Assembly (NCBI GenBank): GCA_016748015.1
Contig: JAAOMT010000197.1
Coordinates: forward strand, 1 to 32,669
Origin: Geosiphon pyriformis
Lineage: Eukaryota > Glomeromycota > Glomeromycetes > Archaeosporales > Geosiphonaceae
Direction of reading: 5' to 3'
Length of the DNA: 32,669 nucleotides
Shown here piece by piece: positions 1 to 8,676 of this stretch. Position 1 is the stretch's first letter. Every line of letters begins with the position of its first letter. The position numbers and the translations under genes are program-made. Below the pieces are notes generated by a model. It saw only the letters and a program-made list of their open reading frames with translations, had not been told where the DNA came from and made no database searches.

Positions 1-2520
1 TTTTTTTTTCTGCTTTAAAGAATTTTTTATAACTCTCTTTTATATAAAGTTAAAAAACATAAAAACTTGTAGAGTTATTATATTAATACTAATTTTATTG
101 CCAGATTGACAAAATAAAAAACTAATCTAAATTGACTTTCTACTTAATGGCTAGTGCTTTTGTTAATAATATAATTTGAGTAAGGAGAAGTTAGACTACT
201 ATTTAATATATTTTAAATATTGTAAGTAAATTTTTCAAGATTAATAACATCTTAATTAACAATAAAAAAACTATAGTAATTTTTATTAATTAAAAAGTTA
301 GAAATGTTTTTTTGTTAATAAGTAGTCTGCCAATCTTTATTACATAGAAAAAAGAGTCTTATAGATATTTGGATATTTTTTTGTCTTTAGAAGATTTATC
401 TAAACCAAGTTTAATAAAAGCTTATTTGAATATTAGATTTTTTATTAACATAATTCTAAAAAAAACTATTTTGGACAAACAATTTTTTTATTTAGTCTTA
501 ACTGTATTACAATCTATTATTAGTTATAAAACTTAATTTAGTTTTATCTTTAGAAGTATGTACAACAAGTAAAATATGCTAATCAAAAAAGATTTGAGAA
601 TAAAAACTAACTTGTTAAAAGATTTTTTTAATAAAGCTCTTTATTATTTGTTATTATATAACTTAAAAACATTTAAACAAATACAAGTAAAGAGTAAAAT
701 AACTTTTGTTTTAAGTTTTTCAAATGCTAATAGTGTTTTTAATTACTTGTTTAATTATAGAGCTCTGAATTTGCAAGTATTAAGTTGGTTTCCTATTAAT
801 CCTTTGCAATGTTCTGTAAAGTTGAAAATTAATCTGATTAACAATTTTTTGGCTGGTATAGTAAAAATTTTTTTGGATTATAATATATCTTTTGTGAACA
901 ATTTGTCTTCTGTATTTCAATTTTTTGGTGGCACTTTAATGTCTTCTGTTTTAAAAAATTCAATGTTTTATAATATTTTTTACTTATTTAAAAGATTTGG
1001 TATTGCTTTTGTTAAATAACTATACAATAAAAAAAAGTTAATTTTTAATTAAAAGAGCTTTTGTTATTGAAAAAAACTCAATTTTAAAGATCTGGTTCCT
1101 GTTTGATTTAAATTGATATGTAATTATTTGGTTAAAGTTGTCTTATATTTTGCTAACTGTTTATTCAATAGTAATATATGGCTTTTGGATATTTTTAATT
1201 CCAGTAATCTTTTAATAGTAAAGTGTTGTTTTGTTGAATGTTATAGAGATTTATACTAATGAATTATTAAAAAATTTAAATATACATAACTTGAGGTACA
1301 GTACAGTTGTGTTTTTTGCTAATCTGAATTTGAGTATAGATGTTAAGATTAGTGGTTTGGTCTTCTTTACTTTGGTAGAGTTATAGACAATAGCTTTAGC
1401 CTTAAAGTGTGCTCTAGCTTTTAATATTGTTATTATATACTTAAATAGCCAAACCACTTTAAATGCCTATGTTGCAGAATTAAATATGCTCTTTTTAGAC
1501 TTTTGCAATTGTTGCTGGCTTAAAAGATACAGTATTATAAATTTTATCAAATATAAAAAACTTGTTGTTTTTTGGTTCAAAGTAAAAAATCATTTAGATG
1601 TCTTCAATAATAAGTATATTAATAAGCTAGCTGACTTAGCATTACATTTAAATTTGGTGTTTTCTATTTGTGTTAAAGAGAAGTATATTAAAGCTAAAAA
1701 AGTAACAGTTTTTGGAAATACTTACTATTTTATTCAAAATGTTTTTAGAACTATTTGTCATGCTTATTGAAAAGTTGAATTTAGATTTAATACTATTAAT
1801 AAAAACATGATTAAAGATGTGAACTGGACTTAAACATTATTAGTTTGGTATTCTGACTTGTATATAACTTTTAGTTTTATATATAAAGCTATTATTGGTT
1901 TATGTTCATATTTCATAAAGATTTTATATTATTATTTGTTAATTATTGTACATAAGTGTCTATATAATAAAGAGTATTCTAGTATATTATGTTTTTATTA
2001 TAAGGAAGTAAAACTTTTTAATTACTTTTTTACATGTGAATAGATTCTGCTGTTTGTAAGGATCTATTTAATAAACATTTAGGTCAATAAAATTTTATAT
2101 TAGGCTTGAACTTGTCATTATTTTATGTTTTATAAATGTTTTTCTTATGTGTATTTAATAATGTTATATATATTGCTGTATATAAAGATTTTATAATTAA
2201 GAAATAATATTTAAAGACTGTGTTTGTTTTTGGCTGTTCTAAAATTGCTGGCAGAAAAATTGTTAATTTGGTATAAGACTTAAGAATAATTCATTATATT
2301 GAGGTATAATTGGTAAGATTACAGTACAGAACTTTTATAAAAAGAAATTGTTTGATTGTATAGGATAATTTTATGTCTCCAATAATCTATGATCTATTAT
2401 TTCTGTTTTCAGATAGTGTTGTTAAATTGCTTGGGATTGTAAAAGTATATAGTGTTGATTTTGATTTGTGTAAATTGTGTGATTTTTTTTAGATGTTGAT
2501 TGTATAATTTTTGTCAAAAT
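1..2520 (+). pseudogene. LINE (non-LTR retrotransposon) ORF relic: RT, RNase H and C-terminal region
   Basis: No intact ORF remains, but one colinear series of LINE domains can be read on the plus strand. Around 145-290 a reverse-transcriptase active-site segment reads SAFVNN followed by an IW-like pair, where FVDD is expected. Around 576-1017 an open stretch ends in FGGTLMSSVL and GIAFV, like the linker between RT and RNase H. Near 1098 the text LVPV, stop, FKL fits a GPVPVWFKL-type motif. From 1247 an RNase H domain follows: IYTNELL (for YTDGSL), TLVEL then stop (for the AEL..A motif), YLNSQ (for YTDSQ), then WFKVKNH and NKLADLA. From 1858 comes a tail with VHKCLYNKEY and a decayed Cys/His cluster, then VVKLLGIV near 2413. 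Known: these are the domains of LINE ORF2-type proteins. Inference: the copy is dead and entered the window already truncated at its 5' side. Confidence 0.87.
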
Positions 2521-3174
2521 AGATTTATAGTATTGCTTTGATTGGCCTAAATGACTGGTCATATGTAGAAAGTATTTAGTTTAAATTACTTAATTTGATG
2601 TATGGTATTAGGTAATGTTAATAAAATAAACAAATAAACACCCAAAAAACCAATATCTTATTTTTTACAAAAAAAACATTAATTTTTTGGTATTTAAAAA
2701 AATTAATGTCAAATTAATGTCAAATTTTTAAAAAAAAAAAGAAAAAAAAAAAGAAACAAAAAAGGTTTTTTTAACTATTTAAAAAGTTGATAACAAAAAA
2801 TAACAGCTTAACTATTAAAGATTTTAAAGCTTTTTAAAATAATAATAATTATATTAAAACTGTTTTTGTATTATTTTAACTTTTATTTAAAGCCAAAAAC
2901 AATGCTCTTTAATAGTTAAAACTGTTTTGTAACTTTATTATACAAAAGAAATGCTTTTTACAAAATAATATTTAATTGCTTTTATAGTTTAAAAAACTTT
3001 TTTGAATGATTACACTATTTAAAAATATGAAAGAAAAAAGAATTAACTTAATTGTATTTGAAAAAAAACATTTATTTTTTTAATTCAAAATTACTAAAAT
3101 TGTAAAATTGCAATATTTATTTCTTTTTAATTAATTAATTAATATTTAATATATTATATTTAAATCAAAAATCA
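2521..3174. other. AT-rich spacer without recognisable gene
   Basis: Long A and T runs, no ORF of note and no tRNA-like fold seen. It may hold the 3' end of the LINE relic, but no poly-A or target-site duplication could be fixed. Confidence 0.6.
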
Positions 3175-3227
3175 AAATAATAATAATAATAATAATAATA
3201 ACGAACCAGCGTGGCTACACGTTAACA

Positions 3228-3259
<32 letters not shown>
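3175..3259. repeat. Two AAT microsatellites around a 27-bp non-repeat core
   Basis: AAT repeats at about 3175-3201 and 3227-3259 flank a short unique core, which includes GCGTGGCTACACGTTAAC. The pair lies directly beyond the stop end of the Fanzor relic, so it may mark the 3' border of that element. In TnpB-type elements the guide RNA is encoded next to that end. Confidence 0.7.
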
Positions 3260-3260
<1 letters not shown>

Positions 3261-3265
3261 GAAAA

Positions 3266-4950
3266 TTAGGTGATTGCGATCAATGCCCGGAGGAAGATCC
3301 CCCGAGCCCACAGTCTCGGCAGTTGTAAAGTTTGGACCCCCGATTCTTTGGATGTGTAGGCTTCATTCTGAATAATAACACGAACCCCTAATTCCTCGGC
3401 CTTGCTTATCAGGCTTCTTTGATAATGATAATGAATCTAACAAAGCATTTTCCGGGCAGTTTTTTGTGTAATCTTTTTTGTCTTACGATTCACCATGTCC
3501 GACACTTCAAAAGGAGGAATAACAATGCATCGAACTCGCGGGTAAAGAATCTAACTGATTTCTGGCGTACAAATTTTTATCGACGCCCATTTTATCTTTA
3601 TATTTTGATGAGGGGACTAATAACTTATGGTTTTTGCAGATGAGTTCATCCAAATACTTGCAAATGCGAATTGTATGTCCAATAGAATGTTCGCCAATCT
3701 TGCCTACATCTTTTTTAGGAGAGCCCCATGTAAAAGGTGTACGGATGCCAGGATCGAGACTGTATGAACAGAACCATCCGCTTGGCGCTGTTTCTGCGTC
3801 TCATATACACAGGCAAGTTTCCACTCATTAGTTTCGCAATACTAAGTGAGGTTGCCATCCGACATTATCTTTTGAGGAAACGGGCTACTTATTACGCCTC
3901 TTTTCGAGATGAAGAGGCGTAAAGAGGCCACAAAGCTAGCTTATCATTATCCAGAATGGTGGTAGGCTTATAAAAATCATCGACGGATTATGGAGATGAG
4001 TGACATAGAAACGATTAAATGTGGATTTCGAAAAATTCTATGCACGAATTGTCGAGATCGAAATGATAGTGTACTGGTGGACCTTGCCATTCGCATTACG
4101 CTTAATTACTTTTTCCCTAGCAATCAATGCTTTATCGATTATATTCGCGAACGCTTTGCCATGAATACCCCGAAACAACATTCCGAGACACACAACCGTT
4201 CGTATGAACTTGCGCTCACCCCATATTGCAGCTTTTCGGACTTTCTCGTCTTCGTGTTCATTGGCGGCTTTTGCTGCTAGAGCTCTGTGTAAAGTATCCA
4301 AGCCTGTTGTGATGGAATTTTGGTATAAAAGCGACGACGTTGACTCTAATAGACAATGGTATTATAAGCAAATCTCGTCAACCCCAGCCATCGCTTAAAG
4401 ACCTGGTTTGAAGATGTTTCGGATACACCTTGATTAATAGTGTACGGTTGAGAGTATCTTCTATCTTCTGAGGTTTGTGATGAGCTGCTGTCGCTTTCGC
4501 CTGTTCTGAAGCTCTGGTCGATAGTAGGCAGCCCTCCTTCTCTGCATGCGGCAGACAAAGACTGTATTGATGGCAAGAATGTCTTGTAAGAGTTCATGCT
4601 CGTCGGAGGTCGCATCGTCGAATAGAACCATGAGTTTTGCAGAATGGAGTAAAAAGATATATTGGCAAAGTCTATCACGGTGGGTGATCACACTTCCCGA
4701 GACCTTTCTGCGGGTTGTTCTTTCCAATAGGGTTTTAAGTCCCGATCTTTTGAAATTGATACCTGACCTGATATCGCTGAGAGGAGTTGCTTTTGTCGTT
4801 CGAGATCCTCTATTTGCTTTGCACTAGACACGGAGATAGAGGTGGTGGAGGTGGCGGTAGTGGTATTAGCATTTTGAGAAGTTAGCTCAGGTATTTATTT
4901 TGAATCTGATCAGCATTACTAAGCAACTGATTAGTTTTATTGATAGGCAT
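3266..4950 (-). pseudogene. Broken Fanzor (eukaryotic TnpB-like RNA-guided endonuclease)
   Basis: Read on the minus strand in several frames. The start MPINKTNQLL at 4950 is followed by a frame change. A Gln/Ser-rich N-terminal region then leads to SKDRDLKPYWKEQ (near 4750) and NSWFYSTMRPP. KRWLGLTRFAYNTIVY (about 4395-4349) matches the N-terminal helix-turn-helix-like segment of TnpB/Fanzor proteins. The RuvC-I motif LDPGIRTPFTW sits at 3758-3726, with its Asp codon at 3753-3755. GKIGEHSIGHTIR follows. The RuvC-II motif IPPFEVSDMV has its Glu codon at 3506-3508. EAYTSK lies at 3365-3348 and the second zinc-ribbon half YNCRDCGL at about 3327-3304. Damage: stops at 4688-4690 and 4346-4348 and near 3455; several frame changes; loss of the first CxxC; and loss of the DRDxNGARN-type RuvC-III segment between CGLG and IFLRALIAIT. 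Known: Fanzors are programmable nucleases related to TnpB. Inference: this copy is inactive. Confidence 0.9.
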
Positions 4951-5106
4951 TAAGCAAATCTTTTCATCGGTTTGTTATGAAAATTTCCCCGCAAGGTAAA
5001 AAGACTTTTGAAAGTGGGACCTTTGCATTTCTTGGGATGCATCCGAACTATAAAATTTACTTTGACTTCATTGCTAAATATCATTGCTTAGAAAAAAACA
5101 GCTATA
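4951..5106. other. Spacer between Fanzor relic and first tandem gene
   Basis: About 150 bp between the divergent starts of the Fanzor relic and the plus-strand gene. It contains an open plus-strand stretch with no recognisable similarity. It probably holds the 5' region of the downstream gene. Confidence 0.4.
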
Positions 5107-6591
5107 ATGAATACTCGATCATCCAGCTGGCCGAAGCCCGAGACCGAGGTATCGAGAATGATTACTAGATCTTTTGAAAAAAGATCAAGTGCTCCACCAC
5201 CAAGTACTGAGAAAAGTAAGGGGCAGCCTTCGAGAATTGGAAATATGTCTTCTCCAACATCAAACTTTCGAACAACCAAAACCACATACCCTAAGACATA
5301 TTACCGCCCTCCTTACGGAAAAAGTATATCAAGGGTTCCGAACAAACATTCAAAGTATAAGTCAGTGGGCCTTATTTCTCAAAATACAATAGCTACCTAT
5401 AAACTAATAATCAAATCTTGGGGTTTCTAAAAGGATTCCAACTCAAAGGGGTGAATCAGCCGATTGGTTGATGACATATCAAAGCAAGTTTGAGGCTGTA
5501 AGTAATGTTCAAGGAATACTCTTTAATTTGGATCTTAAATTTTTTATATTGTTTTTTTAATGTGGCAACAATAGATGTCGCGCGCTTGCGGCGAAGTTTC
5601 GGCAGGATTCCGTCATTTGCGAGAAGCTATTGCAGATATGCATAGCGAAATGCCTGCCCCTAATTTGGGCAACCTTATGGCAGGAATGTTTAGTAGCTTT
5701 GATCAACGACTCCCTTTACGCTCAGAGAATTTGCCAATACCAATACCAATACCAAAATCAAATTTAAATCCTAAATATGCGAATTCACCAGACTTACCTC
5801 TTGGGAATTTTAACCTTCATGAGTTTGATATCAAGGATCAAAGCTGTTCTACTATCCCGCCTATAGATATTAATCAATTAGATGACGAACCACGGGACAA
5901 CCCTTCGGAAACAGGCGAGACATTTTTACAAAAGGGTCAGAACACGGATGCCGATATGAAGGGTGATCTACAATTTGAAAACAACAAAAATCAAAACCAA
6001 GAGCCCACAGAAGATCAGACATTTAAAAATGATAATATAAACGAGGAACTGACGGAGGAGCCTGATTCCAACAATGATGATGAAAGTGAAAAAGGGACAT
6101 GTGAAAACAATAGGGGGGAAGATGAAACAGCGCCTCAAATCAACGTCAATCAAGAAATCCCAATGCAAATTGAAGAATATCATAGAGATAAAACCTCTTT
6201 AGGAAATTCTCCGAATAAAGAGGGGGAGTCATCGAGAAAAAAGCAAACCATGATTCAACTCCAGCTTCATGATTCAACATCACCAAGTCCCCAAGAGCCA
6301 AACCTCTTCATCGATGAAGTTGAAGATCAAGGTTGGAATGACGATGAGCGTCGTCGATTGATTGATGATTTCATTCATTACTTCAATCGGAAAAACGAGA
6401 TCTCCCATATGACCCATAAACAGCTTGCCGACGAAATAATGAATTACTGTAAAGATGCCCCTCACATTGCTCGTTTGGATAATATGGTTGGCAAATATCT
6501 CTTGCGTTATTATCTTCCTAAAGATCCGATAATCTTGAACGCTATCAAAGAATGGACTGATGAGGAAAGGAGGAAAGAATATGGCAGGTAA
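5107..6591 (+). CDS. Uncharacterised protein, tandem paralogue A
   Basis: Not a family I recognise. Suggested exons are 5107-5354, 5434-5497 and 5575-6591; the borders are GT-AG and the phases agree, giving about 442 residues. Exon 2 encodes ADWLMTYQSKFEA. Exon 3 begins MSRACGEVSAGFRHLREAI, a probable helical segment. A long low-complexity middle rich in Asp, Glu, Asn and Gln follows. A conserved C-terminal domain (last 75-80 residues) contains THKQLADEI, RLDNMVGKYL and PKDPIILNAI. The same blocks occur in the gene at 7272-8676, so the coding status is well supported. The last codons read AGG TAA inside a perfect donor, CAG|GTAAGT. Splicing from 6587 to 6723 would replace the stop with 15 other codons (stop at 6766-6768). 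The first exon and the start are the least certain parts. The acidic middle and helical C-terminus could fit a nuclear protein, but no function is claimed. Confidence 0.75.
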
Positions 6592-7271: not shown

Positions 7272-8676
7272 ATGGATTATGGATTGTCAAACATACCAAT
7301 TCTTGATCCCCCCGTTGCACTAACAATTACAGCTCCCACACCAAGCAACGATAATAATCAAAACACATTATTGGATGGATCCTCGTTACCAACGTCCAAG
7401 TCGGCTCCAAGACCCTCCACCCCAAAAATAAATAACTGTAAGATTAATATAATCCTTATTAAACCCCAAATTTTTAGGAACTCCTCAAAAAATCATCCCC
7501 TCCATTAATTCCATAAATTATCGGCATATTGAGCATCTTTTACTTTCATCCAATTTTTTATATATCTTATATCCCGTCCAGGCTTCAAAGTAAAGATTTG
7601 GTTTGATTTTATAGGGGCTGATGCAACAACAATTTCAGTTGAAGAGGATCCGACGGCATGGTTGAAAATCTGCCAGAGCAAATTTGAAGCTGTAATTAAA
7701 CAAATTATTTTATTCCAAGTTATTTTTTATCTATCTAATATCTTGTATTTTCGAATAGATGTCCCGTGCATGTAATGAAATCTCAAATGGTTTCTATCAT
7801 TTGCGATATGCCGTAAATGACATTAATAGAGGAATGCCGGAAATAAATTTCCAAAATATATTGGGAGGAATGTTACCGAGTTTCGAAACACACACTACGC
7901 AATATCCTAACCCGTCTCCACGTGAAACAAAGCCTCAACAACCAAATCCATCCCCCTTGCCTCGTAAATTTTCTCCACCCATACCATTTAGTGATTTCGC
8001 TATAAAACTTCCTAAAAATGATCGGAAACCCGCCAACCTCATACCAAAAGTTCCGCGCTCTCTAAGTGCCTCACGTGTCATACCATATATTCGAACTTCA
8101 CATATTCGAGGCTCAATGAAAACACAAAAACAACTGGCTTCCTCTATATTATCTCGAAAGTATCACAATGCGAGAGGAGAGGTTTTGCGAAAAAGACGAT
8201 TTTCAAATTCAAGCGGATCTCGTGTTAATATTGGCTCTGAATCAGAAGATTCTCGGAAACCTAATGTTGAAGAAGAAAATCAAGGGAATCAATACGATGT
8301 AAGTGAAGATGACAAAGGAGGTGAACAAGATGAAGACCAGGAAGAAAGTTATGATGAGGAGGAACAAGGTGACGAAAATGGAGAAAATGACGGAGATTGG
8401 ACGGACGGGAAGCGCCGTGATGTGAACGACGAATTAATCAAATGGTTTGCCCGGCGAAATCAAATTAGACCTACAACGCATAAACAACTCGCTAATGAAT
8501 TAAAAAAATTTTTTAAGGGAAGTCCAATGACCAGTAGGTTAGACAAACAAGTCGGGAGATATCTTCAAAGGTTCAACATCCCAAAGGATCCTGTTGTTTT
8601 AGAGGCCATCCAAGAATGGATTGAGGGGGAAAAAGAAGCAGAATTGATGTCCTCTTCGAAGAAATTAAAGAGATAA
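7272..8676 (+). CDS. Uncharacterised protein, tandem paralogue B
   Basis: Exons 7272-7437, 7615-7691 and 7759-8676 join in consistent phases to about 386 residues. Exon 1 ends in SAPRPSTPKINN; paralogue A has the similar SAPPPSTEK in its first exon. Exon 2 gives DPTAWLKICQSKFEA, matching DWLMTYQSKFEA in A. Exon 3 begins MSRACNEISNGFYHLRYA and ends with the same conserved C-terminal domain: THKQLANEL, RLDKQVGRYLQRF and PKDPVVLEAIQEW. The intron between exons 2 and 3 sits at the identical place in both genes, just before MSRAC. The middle is Pro-rich, then strongly acidic (8270-8400), and the end is basic (SSKKLKR, possibly a nuclear localisation signal). Function unknown. The pair arose by tandem duplication, and the divergence is strongest in the disordered middle. 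Confidence 0.78.

Follow-up and report, generated by a model that had tools for sequence, protein, structure and literature searches.

The 32,669 nt of Geosiphon pyriformis DNA analysed here (the window) hold at 3281-4968 on the minus strand what is very probably a dead, deletion-riddled copy of an IS607-type transposon, which at one time encoded both a serine recombinase (TnpA) and a nuclease of the Fanzor2 type. Similarity to the related copies in the same genome (siblings) begins sharply at 4968, the left end, and is recognisable down to about 3281. Along the minus strand, the relic of the IS607 serine recombinase occupies the front half of the element and the Fanzor relic the back half.

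The Recombinase Half and an Overlapping Frame

The non-coding left end (LE, 4897-4968, minus strand), located by an LE search and by the sharp start common to the siblings, is followed by SVSSAKQIEDLERQKQLL (4834-4781, minus strand, frame 2 of the three-frame translation), by eye the start of the recombinase domain, and by an IS607 TnpA relic preserved as one open frame (4461-4823, minus strand, frame 1). This frame matches the NF033518 family (transpos_IS607) with an E of 1.6e-15 over profile positions 92-184 of 187, at 57.2 bits against a whole-protein cut-off of 110, and it is 39% identical (E 5e-23) to the intact IS607 TnpA of the IMG/VR contig L133. The initial annotation had taken 3266-4950 for a Fanzor relic, which holds for the back half, but the front is IS607 recombinase and the left end lies at 4968. 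Three of four sibling pieces examined hit NF033518 too, and one sibling TnpA piece matches the catalytic domain of the ISC1926 TnpA (PDB 6dgc, E 5.9e-7). An IS607 recombinase in the same element as the Fanzor, as expected of Fanzor2/IS607 elements, is present in the window. Genome-wide, the resolvase family has given five matches, three of them inside copies of the Fanzor/IS607 family (two of these three being the same place on overlapping contig ends) and a fourth (C354:2051181) about 0.2 kb upstream of a RuvC-I match. IS607-family recombinases have already been reported in a yeast (PMC2715888, cited in part). The fifth resolvase match, the best in the genome (C200:11250-11525, E 3.0e-8, two stops), lies at a place absent from every Fanzor search.

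A second open frame (4346-4687, minus strand), known from the open-frame list and its translation, overlaps the TnpA relic and leads into KRWLGLTRFAYN (4396-4361, minus strand, from the translation), the start of the TnpB/Fanzor core. HTH_OrfB_IS605 reaches an E of 0.2 in the window and of 4.7e-7, over its cut-off, in the sibling L021. The two window frames, 4346-4687 and 4461-4823, are open across the same stretch, and a matching overlapping layout is found in L131, L133, L194 and L195. Against the tnpB of L133 the window frame has no significant similarity (E 1.2); the sibling L042 gives an E of 6e-9. A survey of 74 relative loci has yielded five DPG loci with a tnpA (L131, L132, L133, L194 and L195, of which L131 and L132 gave identical coordinates and scores), and each of the five has a tnpB frame that crosses 497-569 nt of tnpA, in frame +1, without a stop. 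Among 11 other tnpA/tnpB pairs (DLG or no motif recognised), 10 overlap by 1-65 nt, L139 with an alternative glutamate by pattern being one of them, and the exception, L147, overlaps by 553 nt in another frame. Stops interrupt tnpA in L192 and L193 while the tnpB frame is still open. In IS607 elements generally, the two genes are known to overlap (PMC6188088, PMC9956272, both cited in part). As the window frame itself has no significant similarity to tnpB (E 1.2), the course of tnpB through tnpA in the window is regarded as a lead only. Dual coding in the relic is not claimed, since passive conservation can be seen whenever a conserved gene is read in a shifted frame.

The Fanzor Half and Its Predicted Catalytic Glutamate

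An open piece at 4038-4361 (minus strand), which is DNA common to the siblings and has no Pfam match of its own over cut-off, lies in the Fanzor relic after the HTH piece and before the RuvC-I piece. Behind it, the three-frame translation of the minus strand gives LDPGIRTPFTW (frame 1, 3758-3726), IPPFEVSDMV (frame 2, 3520-3491), NEAYTSK (frame 2, 3367-3347), YNCRDCG (frame 0, 3327-3307) and ARGIFLRAL (frame 2, 3307-3281) in this order, spread over three frames, and thereby bears out the earlier reading of a Fanzor/TnpB relic with its motifs in sequence on the minus strand but in different frames. The RuvC-I piece (3507-3800, minus strand), whose translation contains LDPG, has 93 matches in its own genome at E<=10, itself included (best non-self E 3.4e-18), and aligns with the intact Lyngbya TnpB L193 in BLASTP (36% over 73 aa, E 2e-9); accordingly, the motifs go beyond what chance would produce. 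LDPG falls on the DPG of L193, a signature of Fanzors. The same piece has no match in the curated libraries including Pfam, nor in the PDB. The adjoining piece from IPPFEVSDMV to NEAYTSK (3347-3532, minus strand), identified by translation, PF07282 and NF040570, represents RuvC-II with an alternative glutamate and contains one in-frame stop. The profile search that the initial annotation had proposed has brought weak matches in the window (PF07282, E 0.026 at 3341-3433; NF040570, E 0.0023 at 3344-3526) and, with PF07282, matches over the cut-off in four sibling pieces. From curated libraries alone the Fanzor half of the window could not have been named; its naming draws on the siblings and on BLASTP to relatives.

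Yoon et al. 2023 (PMC10711439, cited in part) define Fanzors by two signatures, a DPG within RuvC-I and a glutamate that precedes the zinc finger by six residues. The siblings L009 and L014, for whose pieces the best solved structure is the mimivirus TnpB-like L79, carry E-x6-Cys, and the window keeps the glutamate in NEAYTSK, the CxxC that would follow being deleted. As the LDPG of the window and the E-x6-C of L009 and L014 fit these signatures, the catalytic RuvC-II glutamate is predicted to be that of NEAYTSK and not that of IPPFE, which lies near the canonical TnpB position. The glutamate is thereby moved from the motif to which the initial annotation had assigned it. The full Fanzor/TnpB motif, D-X(125,275)-[TS][TS]XX-[C4]-X(5,50)-RD (PMC3627910, cited in part), is incomplete in the window, where the first CxxC and the RD are deleted, and its parts are present in siblings. 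With RuvC-III lost and the frames broken, the window has no intact D-E-D triad in one frame.

Lesions of the Window Copy

Alignment with other copies in the genome, likewise advised at the outset, has placed the lesions by means of siblings, no intact copy having been found. Comparison with 30 siblings gives 25 deletion runs in the window copy, one of them being the lost right end, and four small insertions. When the 24 better copies are used, the count is 22 deletions, which take up 282 columns altogether; 13 of these deletions measure at least 8 bp. Two 28-bp deletions in this sibling alignment account for the missing motifs, as had been supposed when short internal deletions were held responsible: one at about 3356 (site 3347-3357, minus strand), between 8-bp direct repeats, removed the first CxxC, and one at about 3307 (site 3306-3307, minus strand) removed the DRDxN block of RuvC-III. 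What is left between and behind them is the second zinc-ribbon half YNCRDCG, seen in the translation at 3307-3327, and ARGIFLRAL at 3281-3307, the remnant directly after RuvC-III and the last recognisable part of the element by translation and sibling alignment. GIDRNH near 3284 has been considered as a RuvC-III remnant and rejected, as the sibling alignment gives ARGIFLRAL, in another frame, as the true continuation, with the DRDxN block deleted.

The CxxC deletion occurs with identical ends in two of 24 copies, the window copy included; in the alignment the row of L050 looks alike, and L053, L056 and L063 have similar gaps. On the tree, where inner branches are short and have weak support, the copies with this gap are not next to the window copy, and the CxxC block has therefore likely been lost repeatedly and independently, the flanking 8-bp repeats likely acting as a hotspot. 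The RuvC-III deletion has 1 base of microhomology and ends shared by none of the 23 other copies; several other copies in the sibling alignment have lost the RuvC-III block too, with different ends. Because both reading frames are broken and RuvC-III as well as the right end are gone, the copy cannot function; the window relic is an ordinary dead member of the known IS607/Fanzor2 kind.

Ends and Core Motif

At the left end, the window junction reads CCG, with ACC on the outer and GATGAAAAG on the inner side of 4968. Sibling ends were located by local alignment (the LE slices L104 and L114 failed the filter and were left out of the junction count). Most left junctions follow the pattern ACC|GATGAAAAG; the 20 distinct ones are CCG in 6/20 and CTG in 4/20, against 0/180 and 1/180 background trinucleotides from the same flanks; the remaining 10/20 have neither. 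Right ends of siblings terminate in CCATCCG, with CCG in 25/29 and immediate divergence beyond. A matching short core motif at both ends, as expected of IS607 elements, is thus present in the siblings, and CCG is the tested TAM of NlovFz2 (PMC10432273, cited in part). In four siblings with both ends kept (L020, L047, L057 and L063), by eye no duplication is common to the flanks, and their weak end-to-end inverted similarity was matched by 246, 51, 176 and 16 of 300 shuffles, respectively. Ends, target site behaviour and TAM of the family are read from decayed copies and are to be taken as probable assignments. Right ends (RE) of siblings carry a hairpin, and nine right-end folds have given z-scores of -3.34 (L063), -3.36 (L041) and -2.04 (L060), the other six ranging from -1.34 to +0.83.

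In the window, ARGIFLRAL is followed by a few bases and then by (TTA)n repeats, in the region 3150-3280 (minus strand) where the sibling alignment places the right end with its hairpin and CCATCCG. No RE match with a score of at least 28 occurs in the slice 3000-5300, and 146 alignment columns are absent at the right end of the window copy. Two (TTA)n runs are seen at 3150-3258, with about 25-30 bp of other sequence between them.

Copies in the Genome and Relatives

The genome searched comprises 124.7 Mb in 406 contigs. The zinc-domain model PF07282 has 123 matches in it at E<=10, with 68 places over the curated cut-off. Searched as DNA, the interval gives 88 matches (152 candidates, 40 scored), of which the 29 best non-self ones are 68-77% identical. 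The cut-off of the whole-Fanzor family NF040570 is passed by none of 71 genome matches in a search that ignores introns, the best one, which contains one stop, reaching 81.7 bits. L009, L011, L012 and L024 form a second Fanzor subfamily in the same genome, which is more distant and differs in its 3' end.

The best of 13 prokaryotic relatives are mostly cyanobacterial: Prochloron (51% identity), Lyngbya (49%), Planktothricoides (48%), SAR202 (48%) and Okeania (47%); the IMG/VR contigs L131-L133 reach 46-47%. These identities suggest that the window element is close to cyanobacterial pro-Fanzors, in keeping with the derivation of Fanzors from mostly cyanobacterial IS607 TnpBs, Fanzor2s being found in other transposons as well (Yoon et al., PMC10711439, cited in part). 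The pro-Fanzors of Prochloron (L192) and Lyngbya (L193) resemble the family here in their DPG, the alternative glutamate and the tnpB frame running through the tnpA region. L193-L196 and L198 differ from it in having no zinc-ribbon cysteines in the matched stretch, where the family here has C4; L192, unlike these, keeps them. Since five such TnpBs show none in their matched stretches, this clade may tolerate losing the zinc cysteines; loss of RuvC-III would be fatal, judging from the catalytic triad. These cyanobacterial and SAR202 TnpBs near Fanzor2 (L193-L196 and L198) have been seen to keep E(A/G)(Y/C)TSKT and, where the match extends that far, MDRD.

The family shares with the Fanzor2 elements of IS607 type (Bao and Jurka 2013, PMC3627910; Yoon et al. 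2023, PMC10711439; both cited in part) the combination of serine recombinase and Fanzor, the DPG, the alternative glutamate and the cyanobacterial relatives; in its four copies with both ends, likewise, no TSD has been seen and no TIR is clear. It is unlike them in being large and dead, with 68 PF07282 places and no intact copy found, and in that the window copy is devoid of RuvC-III, the first CxxC and the right end. Likewise, the TAM of NlovFz2 equals the motif at both ends of the family, but NlovFz2 is an active enzyme, whereas the copies here are relics whose TAM would follow from their junctions.

Age and Mode of Decay

Divergence and tree are based on 31 copies, namely the window copy and the 30 of 48 sibling segments with at least 900 matched bases; for deletions and Ti/Tv, seven more diverged copies (L003, L015, L048, L049, L053, L054 and L059) were left out, leaving 24. 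L066 repeats L042 on an overlapping contig end. Compared with the sibling majority, the window copy has 31/290, 28/285 and 35/288 differences at codon positions 1, 2 and 3, and the pooled values of the 31 copies are 0.155, 0.144 and 0.149. The tree is a star, its terminal branches summing to 6.27 against 0.24 for the internal ones. As change is about equal at the three codon positions, the tree is star-like and none of the 71 matches passes the whole-Fanzor cut-off, the record fits one old burst with subsequent neutral decay, rather than a recent death or the spread of a deletion derivative. A third-position excess has been found in L015 (42/239, 30/235 and 76/238), and part of the wider family accordingly diverged while functional.

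The initial annotation had left two origins to choose from, a recent death and an internally deleted derivative, and neither is supported by the comparison with the siblings. That the element died recently and is still near an active source is very unlikely: the window copy differs from the sibling majority by 11.5% and so belongs to the less diverged copies (range 9.1-25.5%), and its terminal branch of 0.142 is the fourth shortest of 31, but even the 29 best non-self DNA matches do not exceed 77% identity, not one match attains the whole-Fanzor cut-off, the even distribution of change over codon positions applies to the window copy as to the pool, and 22 deletions have accumulated in it. Highly improbable, too, is a non-autonomous, internally deleted subfamily that spread after the loss of RuvC-III. 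It would account for the same-ended CxxC deletion in two of the 24 copies and the similar gaps in three others, but no other of the 24 copies shares the ends of the window copy's RuvC-III deletion, and the CxxC deletion, lying between direct repeats that are a likely hotspot, recurs in copies that are not neighbours of the window copy on the weakly supported tree.

TldR repressors are nuclease-dead derivatives kept for guide-directed binding, and a copy that lost RuvC-III between preserved neighbours might be thought to be of this kind, with guide binding retained. This is the least credible of the alternatives and borders on the implausible, as the core is spread over three frames with stops, the right end with the guide scaffold is missing, and a codon-position bias is absent. 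The preferred reading thus remains that of an old, neutrally decaying copy of a burst-born family.

Deletion-Size Record

Among the distinct deletions of the Fanzor family (24 copies), 69 have a length of 10-12 bp, and the classes of 6-8 and 14-16 bp together have 42 (binomial p 5e-10 against an expected one third, a value calculated after the fact, as the peak was first noticed in this family). At 20-22 bp, 26 deletions compare with 21 at 16-18 and 24-26 bp (p 0.0016). A peak at 10-11 bp is also obtained by pairwise alignment, with four reference copies at one gap setting and with one reference at three settings. An unrelated Tc1/mariner family served as a control (20 copies and the query, 21 in all: L077 and L079-L098, chosen over the identity range); it has 12 deletions at 10-12 bp against 2 (p 8e-5) and 2 against 1 at 20-22 bp (p 0.26). 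The LINE-like family of window 1-3200, with nine copies, has 18 deletions (13 single-base ones, two of 11 bp and single cases of 4, 9 and 51 bp), and its 2 against 0 at 10-12 bp (p 0.11) come from a set too small to tell. At the junctions of the 10-12 bp deletions, the Fanzor family has a microhomology of 1.46, where 0.68 is the random value, and the mariner family one of 3.00, where it is 0.97; a similar excess is found in the other length classes of the Fanzor family. We consider it somewhat better than an even chance that a mutational process in this genome, with short microhomology at the junctions, removes about one helical turn of DNA at a time (10-12 bp, and more weakly two turns, 20-22 bp) and thereby erodes unrelated dead transposons, those of the Fanzor/IS607 family included.

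Distinct deletions per kb amount to 9.49 in the Fanzor family, 2.50 in the mariner family and 1.16 in the LINE-like family, at similar divergence from the majority (0.144, 0.151 and 0.160, respectively). The only pointer to the source of this contrast in deletion rate is that changes in the LINE-like family are nearly all transitions. Helical periodicity is known for SPO11 double cuts, from two to three turns upward, and mouse mutants also show some microdeletions of another or an unclear origin, 11-24 bp long, one class of which lies near 13 bp (PMC12918824, cited in part). Among the titles and abstract openings listed from the open-licence literature, no other description of a 10-12 bp deletion peak has been found.

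Neighbourhood of the Relic

Copies of the LINE-like repeat at window 1-3200 are about 75% identical, with nearly all differences being transitions and few indels, as after RIP-like or deamination mutation. Its Ti/Tv of 5.96 (9 copies) compares with 1.84 in the Fanzor family (24 copies), and the lower AT content of the Fanzor relic, which had already been remarked upon, fits a different type of substitution. Window 1-2546 is 100% identical to contig C362:1-2546, and the end of C310 likewise to the start of C397, probably as unresolved assembly overlaps. ORFs at 5575-6591 and 7759-8676 (plus strand), with similar starts (MSRAC...) and ends, appear by eye to be a tandem gene pair beside the relic.

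The Living Ancestor and the Record of Its Dead Copies

The observed remnants of both proteins allow a way of working to be proposed for the living ancestor. By homology, TnpA would have excised the element as a circle and inserted this circle at a short core motif; at either end of the family this motif reads CCG, for which the junctions show a preference. The right end, which folds into a stable hairpin in some siblings, would have been transcribed to give the scaffold of the guide, and the guide itself may, again by homology, have come from the DNA immediately past that end. Fanzor2 would have recognised the CCG motif and the guide match at the emptied donor site and, as its homologues suggest, cut there, upon which repair may have copied the element back into the donor site. 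The copies have decayed neutrally after one burst.

To be recorded for the family are a large, extinct IS607/Fanzor2 lineage in one eukaryotic genome, whose ends are still readable and whose CCG motif matches that of a tested Fanzor2, and a corrected location of the catalytic RuvC-II glutamate, which the motifs place in NEAYTSK as predicted above. The element itself is ordinary; what is unusual here is the deletion-size record of its dead copies, which, by being many, constitute a neutral mutation record of the genome and reveal an unusual and directly testable preference in deletion size.
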